A program made the translations under genes and the position numbers. Positions 6,143-20,491 of a stretch of 37,345 bases of DNA are shown piece by piece. Each line of letters starts with the position of its first letter. The stretch's first letter is position 1. The stretch covers positions 1 to 37,345 of IMG/VR virus record IMGVR_UViG_3300025701_000598; one strand, written 5' to 3'. The DNA comes from a virus. The notes beneath the pieces are model-generated. The model saw nothing but the letters and a program-made list of their open reading frames with translations. It did not search any database and had not been told where the DNA came from.

Positions 6143-6577
6143 TTATTTCTTTTTACTATATGCCTGTGCGCCAAAGAACGCAGCAACGATACCAGCAACA
6201 GCAACAAAGTATGTTGGTGCCATTGATCCTAGTGTCTTTGTTGCTTCACCTAATCCTAGTAGCGATGTAACAACTACAGCAAACGGATATAGTAGTAAAC
6301 CAAATAGTGCAAACCATGTCATACTTCTTTGTGCATCACGCATTGCATCTTGATCTTCTAAAGATTTGCGTCTAAACTCAAGTTCCATTTGTTTTTCTTC
6401 AGAATCGACGTGCCCATCACCGTTTATATCTGCAGGATGATATCCTGTATTTTGTGCCGCAGGTGCAGGTGCCGCTGCTACTACTGGTGTACTTACAGGT
6501 GCCGGAGCTGATGTTTCAATTACTGGAGCTTCCGCCGGTCCTGCACTCTTTAATTCAGTTGGCTTTTTTCTTGGCAT
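6143..6577 (-). CDS. Membrane protein with an EF-hand loop, possible holin
   Basis: 144 residues. An Ala/Pro-rich N-terminal half (about 10-45) is followed by a canonical 12-residue EF-hand calcium loop DINGDGHVDSEE (50-61), a charged helix (about 62-84), and two hydrophobic segments (about 87-108 and 119-138) ending in a Lys cluster. Position after the endolysin and spanin genes and the two-span topology make a holin or holin regulator plausible; no family identity is claimed. The start overlaps the preceding membrane-protein gene by 23 bases, with GAGGG upstream of the ATG. Confidence 0.8.
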   Translation of the reverse strand: MPRKKPTELKSAGPAEAPVIETSAPAPVSTPVVAAAPAPAAQNTGYHPADINGDGHVDSEEKQMELEFRRKSLEDQDAMRDAQRSMTWFALFGLLLYPFAVVVTSLLGLGEATKTLGSMAPTYFVAVAGIVAAFFGAQAYSKKK

Positions 6578-6857
6578 TTTTATTTCCCTCTAGTTTTGCA
6601 AGACGAGATTCTAACTCATCTATCTTTTTAGTTACATGTGGGTATTTTTTACGCCAAGCGTCTGTTGGCTGCTCGAACCATGTCAATCCCCATCTTACAA
6701 CTAAGAAGTCTAAGAATTGATCTAGTTTAGCATAGCACCAAAGCCCTGCTCTTGTATCTTTAAAATAAGCTAGAAATGCAGCGCCAGCTAGTGCGCCAAG
6801 TATACTTGTGTATATCCACAAAGTATCGCCCGTTAGTCGTTCAATTAAATCCCACAT
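6555..6857 (-). CDS. Small membrane protein in the lysis cassette
   Basis: 100 residues with one hydrophobic segment (about 14-32), an amphipathic middle rich in Trp, and a Lys-rich coiled-coil-like tail (about 75-100). It is the other holin candidate in the cassette, though the single clear span is only suggestive. GAGGG lies 5 bases before the ATG. The ATG is in the downstream arm of a 10-bp hairpin (6853-6882) and a late box lies at 6882-6889. It overlaps the EF-hand gene downstream. Confidence 0.78.
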   Translation of the reverse strand: MWDLIERLTGDTLWIYTSILGALAGAAFLAYFKDTRAGLWCYAKLDQFLDFLVVRWGLTWFEQPTDAWRKKYPHVTKKIDELESRLAKLEGNKNAKKKAN

Positions 6858-6882
6858 AGTAACCCTCTTCTTTTACTATGTG
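6853..6882 (-). promoter_or_regulatory. 10-bp hairpin over start codon and ribosome site
   Basis: CACATAGTAA (6882-6873) pairs with TTACTATGTG (6862-6853), which contains the ATG (6857-6855). The Shine-Dalgarno GAGGG is in the 10-base loop. A late start at about 6877 would leave only half of the upstream arm in the RNA, weakening the stem. Confidence 0.6.
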
Positions 6883-6889
6883 TATTTAT
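6882..6889 (-). promoter_or_regulatory. Late promoter box (ATAAATAC) before 6857 gene
   Basis: ATAAATAC overlaps the stop codon of the o-spanin gene (6889-6891) and matches the T4-type late consensus TATAAATA in seven of eight positions. Confidence 0.65.
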
Positions 6890-7260
6890 TAATCTAGTGG
6901 AGGGGTTTCTGGTTTGACAGCTTCTTCGTAGTAAACAATAATTTGTTTTTGCTGTTCAATAAACCGTTTTAGTTCTGCAAAGTTTAAACTAAGGTTTTCG
7001 TAGTCTTTAACTGATATAGCAATGTATGCAAGTTCGCCGTTCTTTGCTGTAAACTTTTCAACAAACTCGTCATAGTTTTCTGCTGTAACAACATAAATCT
7101 TTACGTCATTGATTTGCGCACCCTTAGGGCGAGCTACAATCGGTACAGTTGTTTTTACAGTATTAGTTACTGTTACTATCTGTGGTTCCTGCCTCAGGCT
7201 GCTGCACCCCATTAGGGTCAGTAATGCCGCGGAGATCATTCCATAAGCTATCAGTCGCAT
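6889..7260 (-). CDS. o-spanin (Rz1-like outer-membrane lipoprotein)
   Basis: 123 residues from ATG at 7260, chosen because AGGA lies six bases upstream; an in-frame TTG at 7278 is less likely. The signal peptide ends in a lipobox, LTLMGC, at about residues 14-19, so the mature protein would be a lipoprotein anchored by Cys19. The periplasmic part is predicted alpha/beta with a Pro-rich end. It begins inside the i-spanin gene in another reading frame (98-base overlap), the classic Rz/Rz1 nested arrangement. Together they would fuse inner and outer membranes at lysis, which also points to a Gram-negative host. Confidence 0.85.
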   Translation of the reverse strand: MRLIAYGMISAALLTLMGCSSLRQEPQIVTVTNTVKTTVPIVARPKGAQINDVKIYVVTAENYDEFVEKFTAKNGELAYIAISVKDYENLSLNFAELKRFIEQQKQIIVYYEEAVKPETPPLD

Positions 7261-7585
7261 TTTGCATCCTATTTTCAATCAACCCTGGCTTCTTTTGTGC
7301 TAAGGCTGTTAAGTTGTGTTTTTGCAGAGTAGCACGAAGTTGATCTCCGTAGCTCTCTGCCTTTTGTAGTTCTTGTTGTAGTTGAACATTTAGTTCGGCG
7401 TTACGTGCTGCATCTCTGCGCATAGTCGAAATAGACTCTTCACTTATAGCTACTGCTGTTTCTAACTTTGCATTATTTGCATTTAAGATTGCAATTCGTT
7501 CTTGTGTATCATTATAATACCAATAAAAAACGCCACACAGGACTAACATCATCGCTGCTGAAACAAATGCTAGTTTTAATCCCAT
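7163..7585 (-). CDS. i-spanin (Rz-like inner-membrane protein)
   Basis: 140 residues from ATG at 7585, chosen because GGAG lies six bases upstream; an in-frame TTG at 7597 is also possible. One N-terminal membrane segment (about 3-23) is followed by a long periplasmic coiled coil rich in Glu, Ala, Gln and Leu (about 28-95) and a polar tail. Topology, size, position directly after the endolysin and the nested lipoprotein gene all fit an i-spanin. Confidence 0.85.
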   Translation of the reverse strand: MGLKLAFVSAAMMLVLCGVFYWYYNDTQERIAILNANNAKLETAVAISEESISTMRRDAARNAELNVQLQQELQKAESYGDQLRATLQKHNLTALAQKKPGLIENRMQNATDSLWNDLRGITDPNGVQQPEAGTTDSNSN

Positions 7586-7586
7586 G

Positions 7587-8435
7587 TTATTCTCCAAACA
7601 TTAGTGCAAGACTTTTTGGACCCATAATACCATCTGGTGTTAGATCGTTTTCTTCTTGCCATGCCTTAATATGTGCTTCAGTTCCTTTACCAAATACTCC
7701 ATCAGCGCCAATTTCTAATTCTTCTTGTACTGCTTTAACAGTCGGTCCTCTTGAACCTACACGAATAGTTTCATATACTATCTTGCCAGGCTCCCAATGT
7801 CCGCCCATTACTTCCATTGCATGTTCGTAATGTTTCTTTCGATCTTCTAATCCAATGTATCCACCGTTAATACGCTTTGTAGCACCTTTAACATCTCGTG
7901 CATCGCAATACTTGTTTAAGTTGTTTGTATCCCAGAACCAACATGCTGAGTCTAGTGCGCCTTTTTTAGTGCGTACATAGTCTACTGCTTCTTCTGGGGA
8001 CATTTCCATTTCTTTTGCGAATTCTGTATAATTGTATCTGCCTGTAAGTTGTAGAATGCCACCGCCCCTGAATCTCCAACCATCTCCGGAATCGGTATCG
8101 CCATTGTCCATTCTGCTTGCGTAAATAACGTTCGCAATTTTACGAGGTTGTCTATGATATTCTTGCGCATCTCTACCTGCTCTCTTAAAATATTTGCCAA
8201 ACAAGGCATCAAGTGCTTTTGCACTGTAGTTTAGATTTTCTGATAGTACTTTAAAGTTGTTTGATTCATGACCACACTGTGCAATAAACATTGCAACACG
8301 TTCTGGGGTATTCATTTCCCATAGTGGAAGTATTTCACACATTGCATCGTACCAGTCTTCTGCTTCTTCGTTTCCTCGAAGCATTTCAATTACCATTTCT
8401 TCGGTAAAGTCGAATTCAAAATCTTCTGCTGACAT
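7587..8435 (-). CDS. Endolysin: GH19 chitinase-like domain plus peptidoglycan-binding domain
   Basis: 282 residues. The catalytic domain (about 20-215) has the GH19 signature AQCGHES with probable acid Glu57, then ENLNYSA with Glu66, and FRGGGILQLTGRYNY near residue 122. Residues about 222-282 form a PG_binding_1-type domain (VGSRGPTVKAVQEEL ... DGVFGKGT ... PDGIMGPKS). There is no signal peptide, so release would need a holin. In phages, GH19 enzymes cut peptidoglycan glycan strands. AAAGGA precedes the ATG, and the spanin pair follows directly. Confidence 0.93.
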   Translation of the reverse strand: MSAEDFEFDFTEEMVIEMLRGNEEAEDWYDAMCEILPLWEMNTPERVAMFIAQCGHESNNFKVLSENLNYSAKALDALFGKYFKRAGRDAQEYHRQPRKIANVIYASRMDNGDTDSGDGWRFRGGGILQLTGRYNYTEFAKEMEMSPEEAVDYVRTKKGALDSACWFWDTNNLNKYCDARDVKGATKRINGGYIGLEDRKKHYEHAMEVMGGHWEPGKIVYETIRVGSRGPTVKAVQEELEIGADGVFGKGTEAHIKAWQEENDLTPDGIMGPKSLALMFGE

Positions 8436-9700: not shown

Positions 9701-9709
9701 TTATTTATC
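9701..9709 (-). promoter_or_regulatory. Late promoter box (GATAAATAA) before 9674 gene
   Basis: GATAAATAA lies about 27 bases before the ATG with the Shine-Dalgarno between. It probably drives 9674 down through the lysis genes. Confidence 0.6.
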
Positions 9710-13443: not shown

Positions 13444-14267
13444 TCACTTGCCTTTGTTATTTGTTTAATGTTATTGCTTATTGTAGCATTAAACTCTGCG
13501 TCTGTCAAGTCATACTGTAAATCTTGTGATAATGCTCTTGAGAAACTAGCACTTACATTTTCGTTAAGTCCAAGTCTATTACACGCTTCGTTTGTGCTGT
13601 ATCCGCCACTTAGGAAGACAACCTTTTCTACATTAGGTTTGACTGTTAAGTTGTGATACAAGTTAGGTGTTTCAGGTGGTGTTAGTTTGAGAATAACAGG
13701 AAAGTCTTTCCCTTGCAGATAAACTTCTAATAGTGCGTATAGCTGTAGTTCAATCAATTCTTTATCTGGATGATCGATAGGTACTTCAGGTTCAATGATT
13801 GGGACAAGTCCGTACTCACTAATAGTTTGTGCAATTGTAAACTGTTGTTTAAGAACTGCATCTACCATGTCTACACTTTTAACAATACTACGCATCTTTG
13901 TACCGTAAATTTTAGGACCAATACTTGCACCATTTTCATCGGCAGATGTAGCAAACTCTAGCATTTGTTTGACAGGAAACTGTTTAAGCATACCGTTTTC
14001 TTCACAGCCACTATCAATCTTTAGAAATGTGTCAATGCCCATTTTATCCAAGATGTTAACCATACCGCGTTCAACTGTATCTTTGTAGAGGATTGCAGCC
14101 CAAATGTTTTTATCGTTGAAGTCGGGTGAGTTTACCATTCGCATACGCATTGCGTGTACTTTGTCCATCTTGTCGTCTTCTGTGTACGCTTGTCCGTAGC
14201 GTTCTAATACGCCTCCGGTTGAACCGCCACTGTGATCCATTGCTGCAATAAATCTATGATCACTCAT
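13440..14267 (-). CDS. fda: Class I fructose-bisphosphate aldolase
   Basis: 275 residues from ATG at 14267, chosen because AGGAGA lies five bases upstream; an in-frame extension to 14318 runs inside the HAD gene. It matches short bacterial class I aldolases (staphylococcal type, about 296 residues): FIAAMDHSGGST near the start, KIDSG (83-87), IYGTKMRS (120-127), VPIIEPEV (155-162), ILKLT with probable Schiff-base Lys194, VVFLSGGYS (216-224) and ASFSRAL (240-246). It interconverts fructose-1,6-bisphosphate with two triose phosphates. All key residues appear intact. It lies inside a nucleotide and replication operon, overlapping HAD and gp44, so it is expressed early. Confidence 0.94.
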   Translation of the reverse strand: MSDHRFIAAMDHSGGSTGGVLERYGQAYTEDDKMDKVHAMRMRMVNSPDFNDKNIWAAILYKDTVERGMVNILDKMGIDTFLKIDSGCEENGMLKQFPVKQMLEFATSADENGASIGPKIYGTKMRSIVKSVDMVDAVLKQQFTIAQTISEYGLVPIIEPEVPIDHPDKELIELQLYALLEVYLQGKDFPVILKLTPPETPNLYHNLTVKPNVEKVVFLSGGYSTNEACNRLGLNENVSASFSRALSQDLQYDLTDAEFNATISNNIKQITKASE

Positions 14268-17678: not shown

Positions 17679-20462
17679 TTAAGTGTTGAATCTATAATTT
17701 GCGAATAGTACGTATTGTTCTTGTGAAGTGCCTTGTGAATTATCTATAACGTATCTATCAATATCTAATTCATATTGTTTAAAATTAATATTATAAAAAT
17801 TAATAGTATTTGCAATTATTTTTGATGTGCCAGGTTTACAATAACACAACGGAATAGCATTAACAAATCCTAACTCAGTAATTGAATCTTCTTGTGAAGA
17901 CCTCATCCATAACGGTAGGAAATTCTTTTCAGTTTCGCCAATGCCTTTAATAGCATCTCGCATATGTGTCATATTAGAGATATAGCGAGTAGTATCATTG
18001 CTATCACTAACAAGTATTGCATCACTGTCTGTTGTTATTACATTAGTAGGGTGCGGTCTATATTTATTACTTTCAATTACTCCACCTGTATAAGGTATTG
18101 TTAACGGCAATCCGTCTCTATTCAAAACTTCTAATGTATTTGTTATTGTTATGTTATATGTTTGAGTCCGACCGACAATACTTAATTTATCATCAACTAA
18201 CTTTAAAAATAAGTCACCGTTTTGTCGACTACTTATTACTAGTTGAGAAAAATCACTTGCATATGTATCATTAATATCATGGTATTTTGCACTATTTATT
18301 AAAATCTTTTTATTATTTTTAATCTTAATTTGACTAACAGTTTTTTGATTTTTCTTATTAGATTGTTGCGGATCAATTACTTCTAAATACACAATTTCGT
18401 ATAACACATTTTGGGTGCCAGGTGCCTTAGCTACTGCAGTTTTTACATTACCTATTTTAAGATTTCGTCTTTTATGGTTTTTTGCAGCAGCCGCAACAAA
18501 TCGATCTATAGTTTTTGCTTCTATACCTGCATATGCAAGTATTTTAATTTTAGTTTGAATGCCAAAATTTGCATCGCTTGGTCTATAAAGATATTCAGGT
18601 AGAAAAATTTCTGCATTGTTTACAAAATTAAGGAACTCTGATCTCTGTAATGTTGGTAATAACGGCTGTAAGAAAACATTACTGTATTGTTTATTATCTG
18701 GATCGGTGAGTTTAATACTAAACTCTCGTTCAATTTCACTAAATTTAAATTGATCTTGTGCATTAATTATAAATTTAAAATTCCGATCAAAAGTAGTAGT
18801 ATTTCCATCTATTTGAACTTGTTGACTATCAAACACTGTTAAGCCAAGTTGATCTTCTGTGCCAAAACTATTTACTTTGCCGATCAATTCACCGTCTAAT
18901 GATAATGTTATCCCTGGAGGCAATGTGCCAGATTTTACTGTATAAAGTAAATTAGCATTAGGTACAGTTGTAGTTGCCTTAACATTAAGTGTACTAATAT
19001 AGTTAGCACTAAATGATCCAAGATCACTAGGAGTAATCCATTTTATAGTTGATTCAACTTCACCTAATAATTTTACTACAAAAGTTTTTACACTAACAGC
19101 ATCTTCAGTATCAGTAAGTTTGATAGTCCCAAAATTAATACTCACACCTTTAGCAAATGATGTAGCTGTAGCTCTGTTTAATGTTAACGTATCAAAATTA
19201 GTATTACTTGTATCAATGTTAGTAACAATGTATGTATGTCCTGTAACTGTAAATTCTTTATTAATTACATTAAGTGCGTAGTTATCAAATTTACTAGTTT
19301 TAATTTGTGCTGCTCCAATGTCGGCACCTTCATACATATATTCAATAAGTTGTATACTATCAACATCAAAGCCAATACGCTGGGCAGCAATAGTAAATTT
19401 ATATTCTTTTGTAACAGCTGGTTGATAAGGTATTTTTCCAGCAATCTCACCAGTAATAGCATCTAATGTTAACCCTGGAGGAAGTATACTAAGAGTGTTA
19501 TCGTCATTAAGTGATTTTTGATAATAACTAACTTGACCTGCAAGAGTGTTAGCATCAATAATATCTAGTAGTAATGTAACATAGTTATTAGCTCTTCTAT
19601 AACCAAAGTCCCTTGGTGTTAACCAAATAGGCACACGTATATGTGTATTGTCTGCACTAAAGACTCCAGTACCAATTTTCATAACAGTGGTGTCTGATCT
19701 AAAAAAGTCATCTCCTACAACATATAATTTAAAAGTACGGCTTGAAATGGTGTCTCCGTCACTTACACTAACTATAAATTCGTAGAATCGGTTAAGTTTT
19801 TTAGGTGACTGTGTTGGTGTGCTTGTATCAAAAATAGTTGTATCATAATAAAAACTATCAAACCCGTTTGCACTTGGAACACTCCAATCGTATGCACTAG
19901 TAGATCCAGTATCATATCCTGCATCGTCATAGAATCCTCTTCCTGTTGATTTTTCAATTGCAAGTATAGGATCAACAACTCCGACTAATCTACCATCTTG
20001 AGTTAGTTGTATTCCAGGAGGCAGTGTTCCTCCTTTTGCTGGAATAAAATATTCAAGTTTTTGTCCAGCAGCCGTATCAGTGTCTATTACTTCTAGTTGA
20101 AAATCAACTGGCGCACTGTCTAATATATAATAAGTTCCGTTGTTACCAGCTGCTAATAAATCTGCAGGTGTTTGCCATTGCGGTGCATCTGCGCCCTGGA
20201 TTGTTATTTTAACAGTATTATCACTTATTTGAGAATTATAAGTTGCCCTAAGTACAAATGTACTAACAGTTTCTCTTGCTACCTCTAACGGAGTACCTAC
20301 AATTGTATTATTAGTTAACCGTAAGCCTGCAGGCAAACTCCCACTTATTAATGTAACAGTTGCATTTACTTCTGAAAGTGGTAATTGTATCGGTGCAATT
20401 GTTACTTGCTCTTGCAGAGTAGTAAGATTATCACCGTTATTACTTGTCCAAAAATTTGCCAT
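17679..20462 (-). CDS. Large virion appendage protein with putative Ig-like (He_PIG) repeats
   Basis: 927 residues. Four copies of the He_PIG-type pattern LPxG(L/I)xL...G.(L/I).G are seen at about 40-60 (SGSLPAGLRLTNNTIVGTP), 143-163 (GGTLPPGIQLTQDGRLVGVV), 327-347 and 509-530. Each belongs to a cadherin/Ig-like beta domain of about 90-180 residues. The C-terminal third (from about 590) differs: mixed alpha/beta with FVAAAAKNHKRRN and a Lys-rich stretch. Such repeats are common in marine phage tail or baseplate proteins and may bind cell-surface glycans or act as spacers. A late box and GGGAATAG precede the ATG. Confidence 0.8.
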   Translation of the reverse strand: MANFWTSNNGDNLTTLQEQVTIAPIQLPLSEVNATVTLISGSLPAGLRLTNNTIVGTPLEVARETVSTFVLRATYNSQISDNTVKITIQGADAPQWQTPADLLAAGNNGTYYILDSAPVDFQLEVIDTDTAAGQKLEYFIPAKGGTLPPGIQLTQDGRLVGVVDPILAIEKSTGRGFYDDAGYDTGSTSAYDWSVPSANGFDSFYYDTTIFDTSTPTQSPKKLNRFYEFIVSVSDGDTISSRTFKLYVVGDDFFRSDTTVMKIGTGVFSADNTHIRVPIWLTPRDFGYRRANNYVTLLLDIIDANTLAGQVSYYQKSLNDDNTLSILPPGLTLDAITGEIAGKIPYQPAVTKEYKFTIAAQRIGFDVDSIQLIEYMYEGADIGAAQIKTSKFDNYALNVINKEFTVTGHTYIVTNIDTSNTNFDTLTLNRATATSFAKGVSINFGTIKLTDTEDAVSVKTFVVKLLGEVESTIKWITPSDLGSFSANYISTLNVKATTTVPNANLLYTVKSGTLPPGITLSLDGELIGKVNSFGTEDQLGLTVFDSQQVQIDGNTTTFDRNFKFIINAQDQFKFSEIEREFSIKLTDPDNKQYSNVFLQPLLPTLQRSEFLNFVNNAEIFLPEYLYRPSDANFGIQTKIKILAYAGIEAKTIDRFVAAAAKNHKRRNLKIGNVKTAVAKAPGTQNVLYEIVYLEVIDPQQSNKKNQKTVSQIKIKNNKKILINSAKYHDINDTYASDFSQLVISSRQNGDLFLKLVDDKLSIVGRTQTYNITITNTLEVLNRDGLPLTIPYTGGVIESNKYRPHPTNVITTDSDAILVSDSNDTTRYISNMTHMRDAIKGIGETEKNFLPLWMRSSQEDSITELGFVNAIPLCYCKPGTSKIIANTINFYNINFKQYELDIDRYVIDNSQGTSQEQYVLFANYRFNT

Positions 20463-20482
20463 ATATCTATTCCCTATATAGC

Positions 20483-20491
20483 ATATTTATC
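20483..20491 (-). promoter_or_regulatory. Late promoter box (GATAAATAT) before 20462 gene
   Basis: CGATAAATATG about 22 bases before the ATG. Confidence 0.6.

Follow-up and report, generated by a model that had tools for sequence, protein, structure and literature searches.

A small holin-like gene of a virus carries an RNA hairpin over its start codon, and the 5' arm of this hairpin is split by the predicted start site of the gene's own late promoter. The hairpin is likely to be a translational shield that is removed by this promoter. Its recurrence in many related phages, with matched changes of both arms, makes a genuine on/off switch of the T4 lysozyme kind probable.

The gene lies on the minus strand of IMG/VR record IMGVR_UViG_3300025701_000598, positions 1–37,345; this whole stretch of 37,345 nucleotides is called the window here. 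The virus is taken to be a marine phage, and its T4-like character is indicated by genes of the window for a clamp loader, a baseplate wedge, PhoH, thymidylate synthase, and a DNA polymerase-like protein.

The lysis cassette and its holin-like gene

The order of genes on the minus strand is endolysin, inner-membrane spanin, lipoprotein spanin, the 100-aa membrane protein in question, an EF-hand-like membrane protein, and a dnaJ-like gene (6099–5281). The dnaJ-like gene is followed by a peptide deformylase gene and then by a gene for a ClpA-like ATPase. The endolysin (7587–8435) is GH19-like with a peptidoglycan-binding domain (phrog_181, 9e-72). The inner-membrane spanin (7163–7585) is Rz-like (phrog_739, 4e-11). 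The outer-membrane lipoprotein spanin, or o-spanin (6889–7260), is Rz1-like with the lipobox LMGC (phrog_812, 3e-13), and the start of its gene overlaps the end of the inner-membrane spanin gene. Downstream of the holin-like gene, and overlapping its end, is the gene for the protein with an EF-hand-like motif and hydrophobic stretches (6143–6577).

The holin-like gene itself (6555–6857) encodes a protein of 100 aa with one N-terminal membrane-helix-like stretch (approximately residues 14–32) and a charged helical C-terminus. Its family shares conserved G, W, Y, K, and P residues and a charged, coiled-coil-like end. The single hydrophobic helix and the adjacent endolysin and spanins are features of a holin. 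Among related leaders preceded by a promoter box (defined below), 65 of 72 have lysis genes in the sampled locus, some of these loci having been fetched through the spanin. No match to the window protein is seen in PHROG, and no holin match above the cut-off in PHROG or Pfam. The Pfam family XhlA, which we take to be a phage lysis-associated family, matches 13 of 44 family members, all below the cut-off (best 5.7e-5). The AlphaFold model from 44 sequences has a pLDDT of 57 and is therefore not usable. The first-pass annotation had placed the gene in a lysis cassette and had called its product a possible holin. The cassette is borne out by the endolysin and both spanins adjacent upstream. The holin assignment draws on its membrane helix and its setting, and lacks a family match above the cut-off and a confident model. 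A lysis role may be proposed for the protein, and holin function is a fair guess.

The surroundings of the gene vary among relatives. In L027, a lipase-like gene (6273–7031; GHSLG motif, recognized by eye) lies directly 3' of the holin-like gene. In L004, L005, and L009, the lipoprotein spanin and the holin-like gene are separated by iscU/iscA-like iron-sulphur scaffold genes, named by eye.

The start-codon hairpin and its predicted truncation

Four elements follow one another on the minus strand at the start of the holin-like gene. The first is the late-promoter-type box AATAAATA (6890–6883), which is overlapped by the TAA stop codon of the o-spanin gene (6891–6889). The 5' arm of the hairpin, CACATAGTAA (6882–6873), comes directly after it. 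Next is the loop AAGAAGAGGG (6872–6863), containing the Shine-Dalgarno sequence GAGGG (6867–6863) 5 nt before the ATG. The 3' arm, TTACTATGTG (6862–6853), holds the ATG (6857–6855) and the beginning of codon 2 (Trp). All 10 pairs of the stem are Watson-Crick pairs, and dinucleotide shuffling of the leader matches its score once in 5000 trials. A terminator is an unlikely reading of the hairpin: it is not followed by a T-run and is absent from the terminator scan.

The T4 late promoter is an 8-bp TATA box at positions -13 to -6, about one helical turn before the start, and nine T4 late promoters have A at -13, a tolerated variant (PMC2988020). Therefore, AATAAATA can be considered as an accepted variant with the transcription start (+1) predicted at 6877, based on the T4 spacing. 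As in a T4-type late promoter, a TATAAATA-like box is located about 6 nt before the predicted +1. Boxes of this type are concentrated before genes. Among 18 minus-strand boxes matching NHTAAATA in the window, nine sit 22–40 nt before a gene start, and 0.35 are expected with random starts. Counts of WATAAATA in large contigs show no clear excess over the reversed pattern, and the box is thus informative only through its position before genes. Promoter activity of the box and its start site at 6877 are thus predictions.

A gp55-type late sigma factor was searched for with phrog_234, phrog_12791, the gp55-like protein of a relative, and Sigma70_r2, and was not found in the hairpin-bearing contigs; these are fragments of 26–105 kb, so that non-detection is not evidence of absence. 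It is present only in three relatives without the hairpin.

The RNA started at 6877 is predicted to lack nucleotides 6882–6878, or five of the ten bases of the 5' arm. The first-pass annotation had described just such a design, with a 10-bp stem, the ATG in the arm, the Shine-Dalgarno sequence in the loop, and a late start near 6877 that removes half of the upstream arm. The stem and its parts hold in the present analysis, and the late start holds as a prediction.

RNA folding distinguishes the two transcripts. The long RNA with its 52-nt leader folds with -11.7 kcal/mol (z -4.76), and none of 200 shuffles is equally stable. In the 38-nt RNA beginning at 6877, only AGUAA/UUACU is left of the stem, and the RNA has no stable structure (MFE -0.5 kcal/mol). 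When more flank is added to give 80 nt, this hairpin is still the fold of minimum energy; the z of the whole 80 nt is only -0.8, which indicates that the hairpin signal is local. The energy required to open the ribosome site, computed for -13 to +5, is modelled as 14.0 kcal/mol for the long RNA and 2.45 kcal/mol for the short RNA. An identical calculation for the leader of T4 gene e gives 17.1 kcal/mol for the long RNA, and 4.75 or 2.26 kcal/mol for the RNAs from its two boxes. By computation, the stem sequesters the start codon on the long RNA, as in regulation of the T4 e or I-TevI type.

Based on these features, the following mechanism is proposed. Read-through from the upstream genes would generate a long RNA whose AUG is held in the 10-bp stem and whose Shine-Dalgarno sequence lies in the loop. 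Ribosomes would be unable to start on the holin-like gene of this locked RNA. Transcription from the AATAAATA box would instead produce an RNA that begins within the 5' arm, with half of the arm missing, and that would be open to translation. The output of this probable lysis protein would thus depend on whether its own late promoter fires, and not on the transcription of its neighbours. Repression on the long RNA is predicted here from the modelled energies. For T4 gene e, synthesis from the structured RNA is reported to be 100-fold lower (PMC3014915).

The nearest upstream box (9709–9702) precedes virion-protein genes, and none was found just before the endolysin or the spanins. The long RNA may therefore originate at 9709–9702, and the RNA silenced by the hairpin may itself be a late polycistron. 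If it is, the switch would separate the holin-like protein from the endolysin/spanin polycistron, besides blocking early expression. As the upstream genes look late, early/late timing is not the sole possible purpose of the hairpin; the mechanism would be unchanged.

Leaders of related genes

IMG/VR was scanned with the window protein, two homologues, the spanin, and a DNA pattern, and more than 400 loci were obtained. The comparison set consists of 160 distinct leaders of the holin-like gene from uncultured phages. The DNA pattern selects the box and the 5' arm and therefore favours hairpin-bearing leaders somewhat; the protein scans carry no such bias. Leaders with the box 24–40 nt before the ATG are called boxed (72 leaders), and the remaining 88 are called unboxed. 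A hairpin is counted when the start-codon stem score is at least 14, a cut-off set after inspecting the ranked list.

The hairpin is seen in 48 of the 72 boxed leaders, where shuffles predict 5.4 (maximum 11 in 100 sets), versus 2 of the 88 unboxed leaders, where 2.7 are expected from shuffles. The contrast is kept at a cut-off of 18 (37 boxed versus 1 unboxed). Among genes beginning with ATGTGG, 42 of 56 boxed leaders have the hairpin and none of 31 unboxed leaders does; all genes in that comparison share the coding portion of the 3' arm. About one third of the boxed leaders are without a strong hairpin. The association is also specific to the gene: in the sampled loci, among genes with both a box and a Shine-Dalgarno sequence, the hairpin is found in 44 of 71 holin-like leaders versus 13 of 205 other genes.

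In 41 of the 48 leaders, the 5' arm follows the box without a gap, and the predicted start thus cuts away about 5 nt of the arm. The loop varies from 7 to 17 nt. The fixed distance between box and arm, together with the variable loop, fits the need of a truncation mechanism. The mean drop of the opening energy upon truncation is 6.0 kcal/mol in boxed relatives versus 1.35 kcal/mol in unboxed relatives, for which a dummy start was used (p 9e-17, ignoring relatedness). In L188, the gene of an 82-aa protein (13512–13794), 35% identical to the holin-like protein, likewise has a late box, followed by a start-codon hairpin of 11 bp with another sequence. For neither L188 nor the holin-like protein is a homologue seen in the searched collection of deposited phage genomes. 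In L046, L049, and L052, the stem AGTTGTA/TGCAACT extends into codons 2–3 and is likewise split by the predicted start.

The positions of upstream stop codons raise another explanation, in which the hairpin is a translational coupler. A ribosome ending at the stop codon 6891–6889 would cover part of the 5' arm and open the hairpin, and the holin-like gene would be expressed along with the upstream gene rather than silenced. The stop codon does overlap the box in the window, and at boxed loci the upstream co-directional stop is usually 20–50 nt before the start, within reach of a terminating ribosome. However, coupling leaves unexplained both the near-restriction of the hairpin to boxed leaders and the split of the 5' arm by the promoter start. 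In unboxed relatives, the nearby stop is mostly less than 20 nt from the start or overlaps it, without a hairpin, which is the usual form of coupling. Plain coupling and the box with the hairpin thus appear as alternatives within the family. The upstream neighbour can also differ: L005 and L009 keep the box and the hairpin, although about 1–1.5 kb with iscU/iscA-like genes separates the spanin. L004 has a similar insert and keeps the box, and its stem has a mismatch. Coupling as the explanation is considered unlikely, although it can be partly true together with the shield.

The two arms change together. By eye, matched pairs are AGT/ACT in the window, AGTT/AACT in L093 and L010, AAT/ATT in L251 and L353, ATATA/TATAT in L350, ATCGA/TCGAT in L347, and AGTTGTA/TGCAACT in L046. 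When 3' arms were swapped among boxed relatives, the mean stem score fell in 1000 of 1000 swaps (z 6.7). The same test gives z 5.0 for genes with ATGTGG and z 3.6 for the 19 most diverse leaders, where 1 of 2000 swaps did equally well. Conservation of the arms, which the first-pass annotation had named as a check on the hairpin, is thus seen in both the number of boxed leaders with a stem and the swap test. The leaders are related, so none of these counts represents independent events. The protein tree is poorly resolved, and a test of independent pairs gave two supported pairs, too weak for counting independent gains.

It could be speculated that the hairpin has no function, and that the 5' arm is conserved merely as a promoter or initially transcribed sequence which matches the gene start by chance. 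The sequence CACATAGT indeed comes after the box in many relatives. Nevertheless, the rarity of the hairpin at other late-boxed genes, the change of the 5' arm along with the 3' arm, and the low number of hairpins in shuffled leaders make this very improbable.

A MAFFT alignment of 29 leaders sharing a single register shows 91.7% of pair cells paired, versus 56% or less when the arms are slid by 1–3 columns. G-U pairs occur at three positions, and one position switches between A-U and U-A in seven sequences. The covariation score in the single register is reached by 11 of 500 shuffles, and RNAalifold predicts seven pairs with little covariation from this alignment. Because codon 2 is fixed, there is little variation across relatives in the outer half of the stem. 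From these comparisons, the support appears strong for the pairing as a whole and modest for the conserved register alone.

The same alignment bears on the idea that the repeat is a DNA palindrome, not an RNA structure, and serves as a repressor operator at the promoter. The repeat overlaps the promoter, and I-TevI is known to repress its own late promoter (PMC2988022). However, G-U pairs are common (in 8 of 29 leaders at one position of the stem and in 4 of 29 at a second); they break the symmetry of DNA and keep the pairing of RNA, which disfavours an operator. The variable loop length and the drift of the arm sequence among relatives also argue against it. An operator is thus a highly improbable explanation, and the promoter-removed shield is the preferred one.

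The dnaJ-like gene and other boxed genes

The most surprising by-product of the analysis is the leader of the dnaJ-like gene. It has a start-codon hairpin of its own (6124–6090, minus strand), with 12-bp arms AATAGTCCATGC (6124–6113) and GCATGGACTATT (6101–6090), the latter including the ATG (6099–6097). Here, the promoter-like box GGTAAATA (6112–6105) is located in the loop, and no Shine-Dalgarno sequence is present. The relatives of this gene have a conserved hairpin of 10–16 bp over the ATG, with the box GATAAGTA or AATAAGTA in the loop. In 55 of 84 distinct leaders, the box is exactly 5 nt before the ATG, and the box-type leaders are without a Shine-Dalgarno sequence. The arms co-vary (0 of 1000 swaps equally good). 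With +1 at box end +6, a box 5 nt before the ATG would yield a leaderless RNA; this distance supports, independently and indirectly, the spacing used for the start at 6877. These facts suggest that the gene's own transcript would be leaderless and its read-through transcript locked. It is possible, and put forward only tentatively, that start-codon hairpins cut by promoters are an operon-wide design: the arm would be split at the holin-like gene, and the leaderless RNA of the dnaJ-like gene would be wholly without the 5' arm.

Other leaders of dnaJ-like genes are built differently. Some relatives have TTGACA...TATAAT-like sequences just before the ATG instead. Those of L211, L245, L275, L307, and L313 have an AAAGGAT...ATCCTTT-like inverted repeat with GGAGG between the arms. 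Elsewhere in the window, at a 927-aa gene starting at 20462 on the minus strand, a late box is accompanied by a start-codon stem that scores 18.5 (20457–20491). Its homologue in L155, 52% identical, has a differently built ACATAGT/ACTATG stem behind a box; the observation also covers L190.

Comparison with known translational hairpins

In T4 gene e, the start of translation is masked by a stem when the RNA is long, and late RNAs lack the 5' arm (PMC3014915). The first-pass annotation had likened the present hairpin to that of gene e, and the comparison is justified by the lysis-related gene, the promoter-linked start hairpin, and the similar modelled opening energies. The arrangement is different. 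In gene e, it is the Shine-Dalgarno sequence that forms part of an arm, and the second late box is placed between the two arms. In the phage here, the ATG belongs to an arm, the loop contains the Shine-Dalgarno sequence, and the box sits outside the stem, directly next to the 5' arm. The protein here is an unannotated membrane protein known from sequence alone, and not an endolysin as in gene e.

I-TevI, I-TevII, I-TevIII, segB, and Aeh1 mobE similarly have a late or middle promoter just upstream, and their own transcripts are too short to form the inhibitory structure (PMC2988022). Unlike the gene here, they encode homing endonucleases, and some of them also carry a transcriptional operator (PMC2988022). 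In T4 soc and gene 49, a helix at the start region lowers ribosome binding (PMC3014915). They are likened here by description and are different from the holin-like gene.

Late translation hairpins of the T4 type have been described in a few genes of T4 and related phages. The comparative evidence from many genomes extends the same logic to a lysis-cassette gene of marine phages. Such a switch would mark the gene as costly if made at the wrong time, as expected of a holin. The collected leaders are also a ready comparative set for the joint evolution of promoter position and RNA structure. By analogy, the best reading is that the known mechanism of T4 gene e and I-TevI would act here on a new, unannotated holin-like gene in a new phage group.
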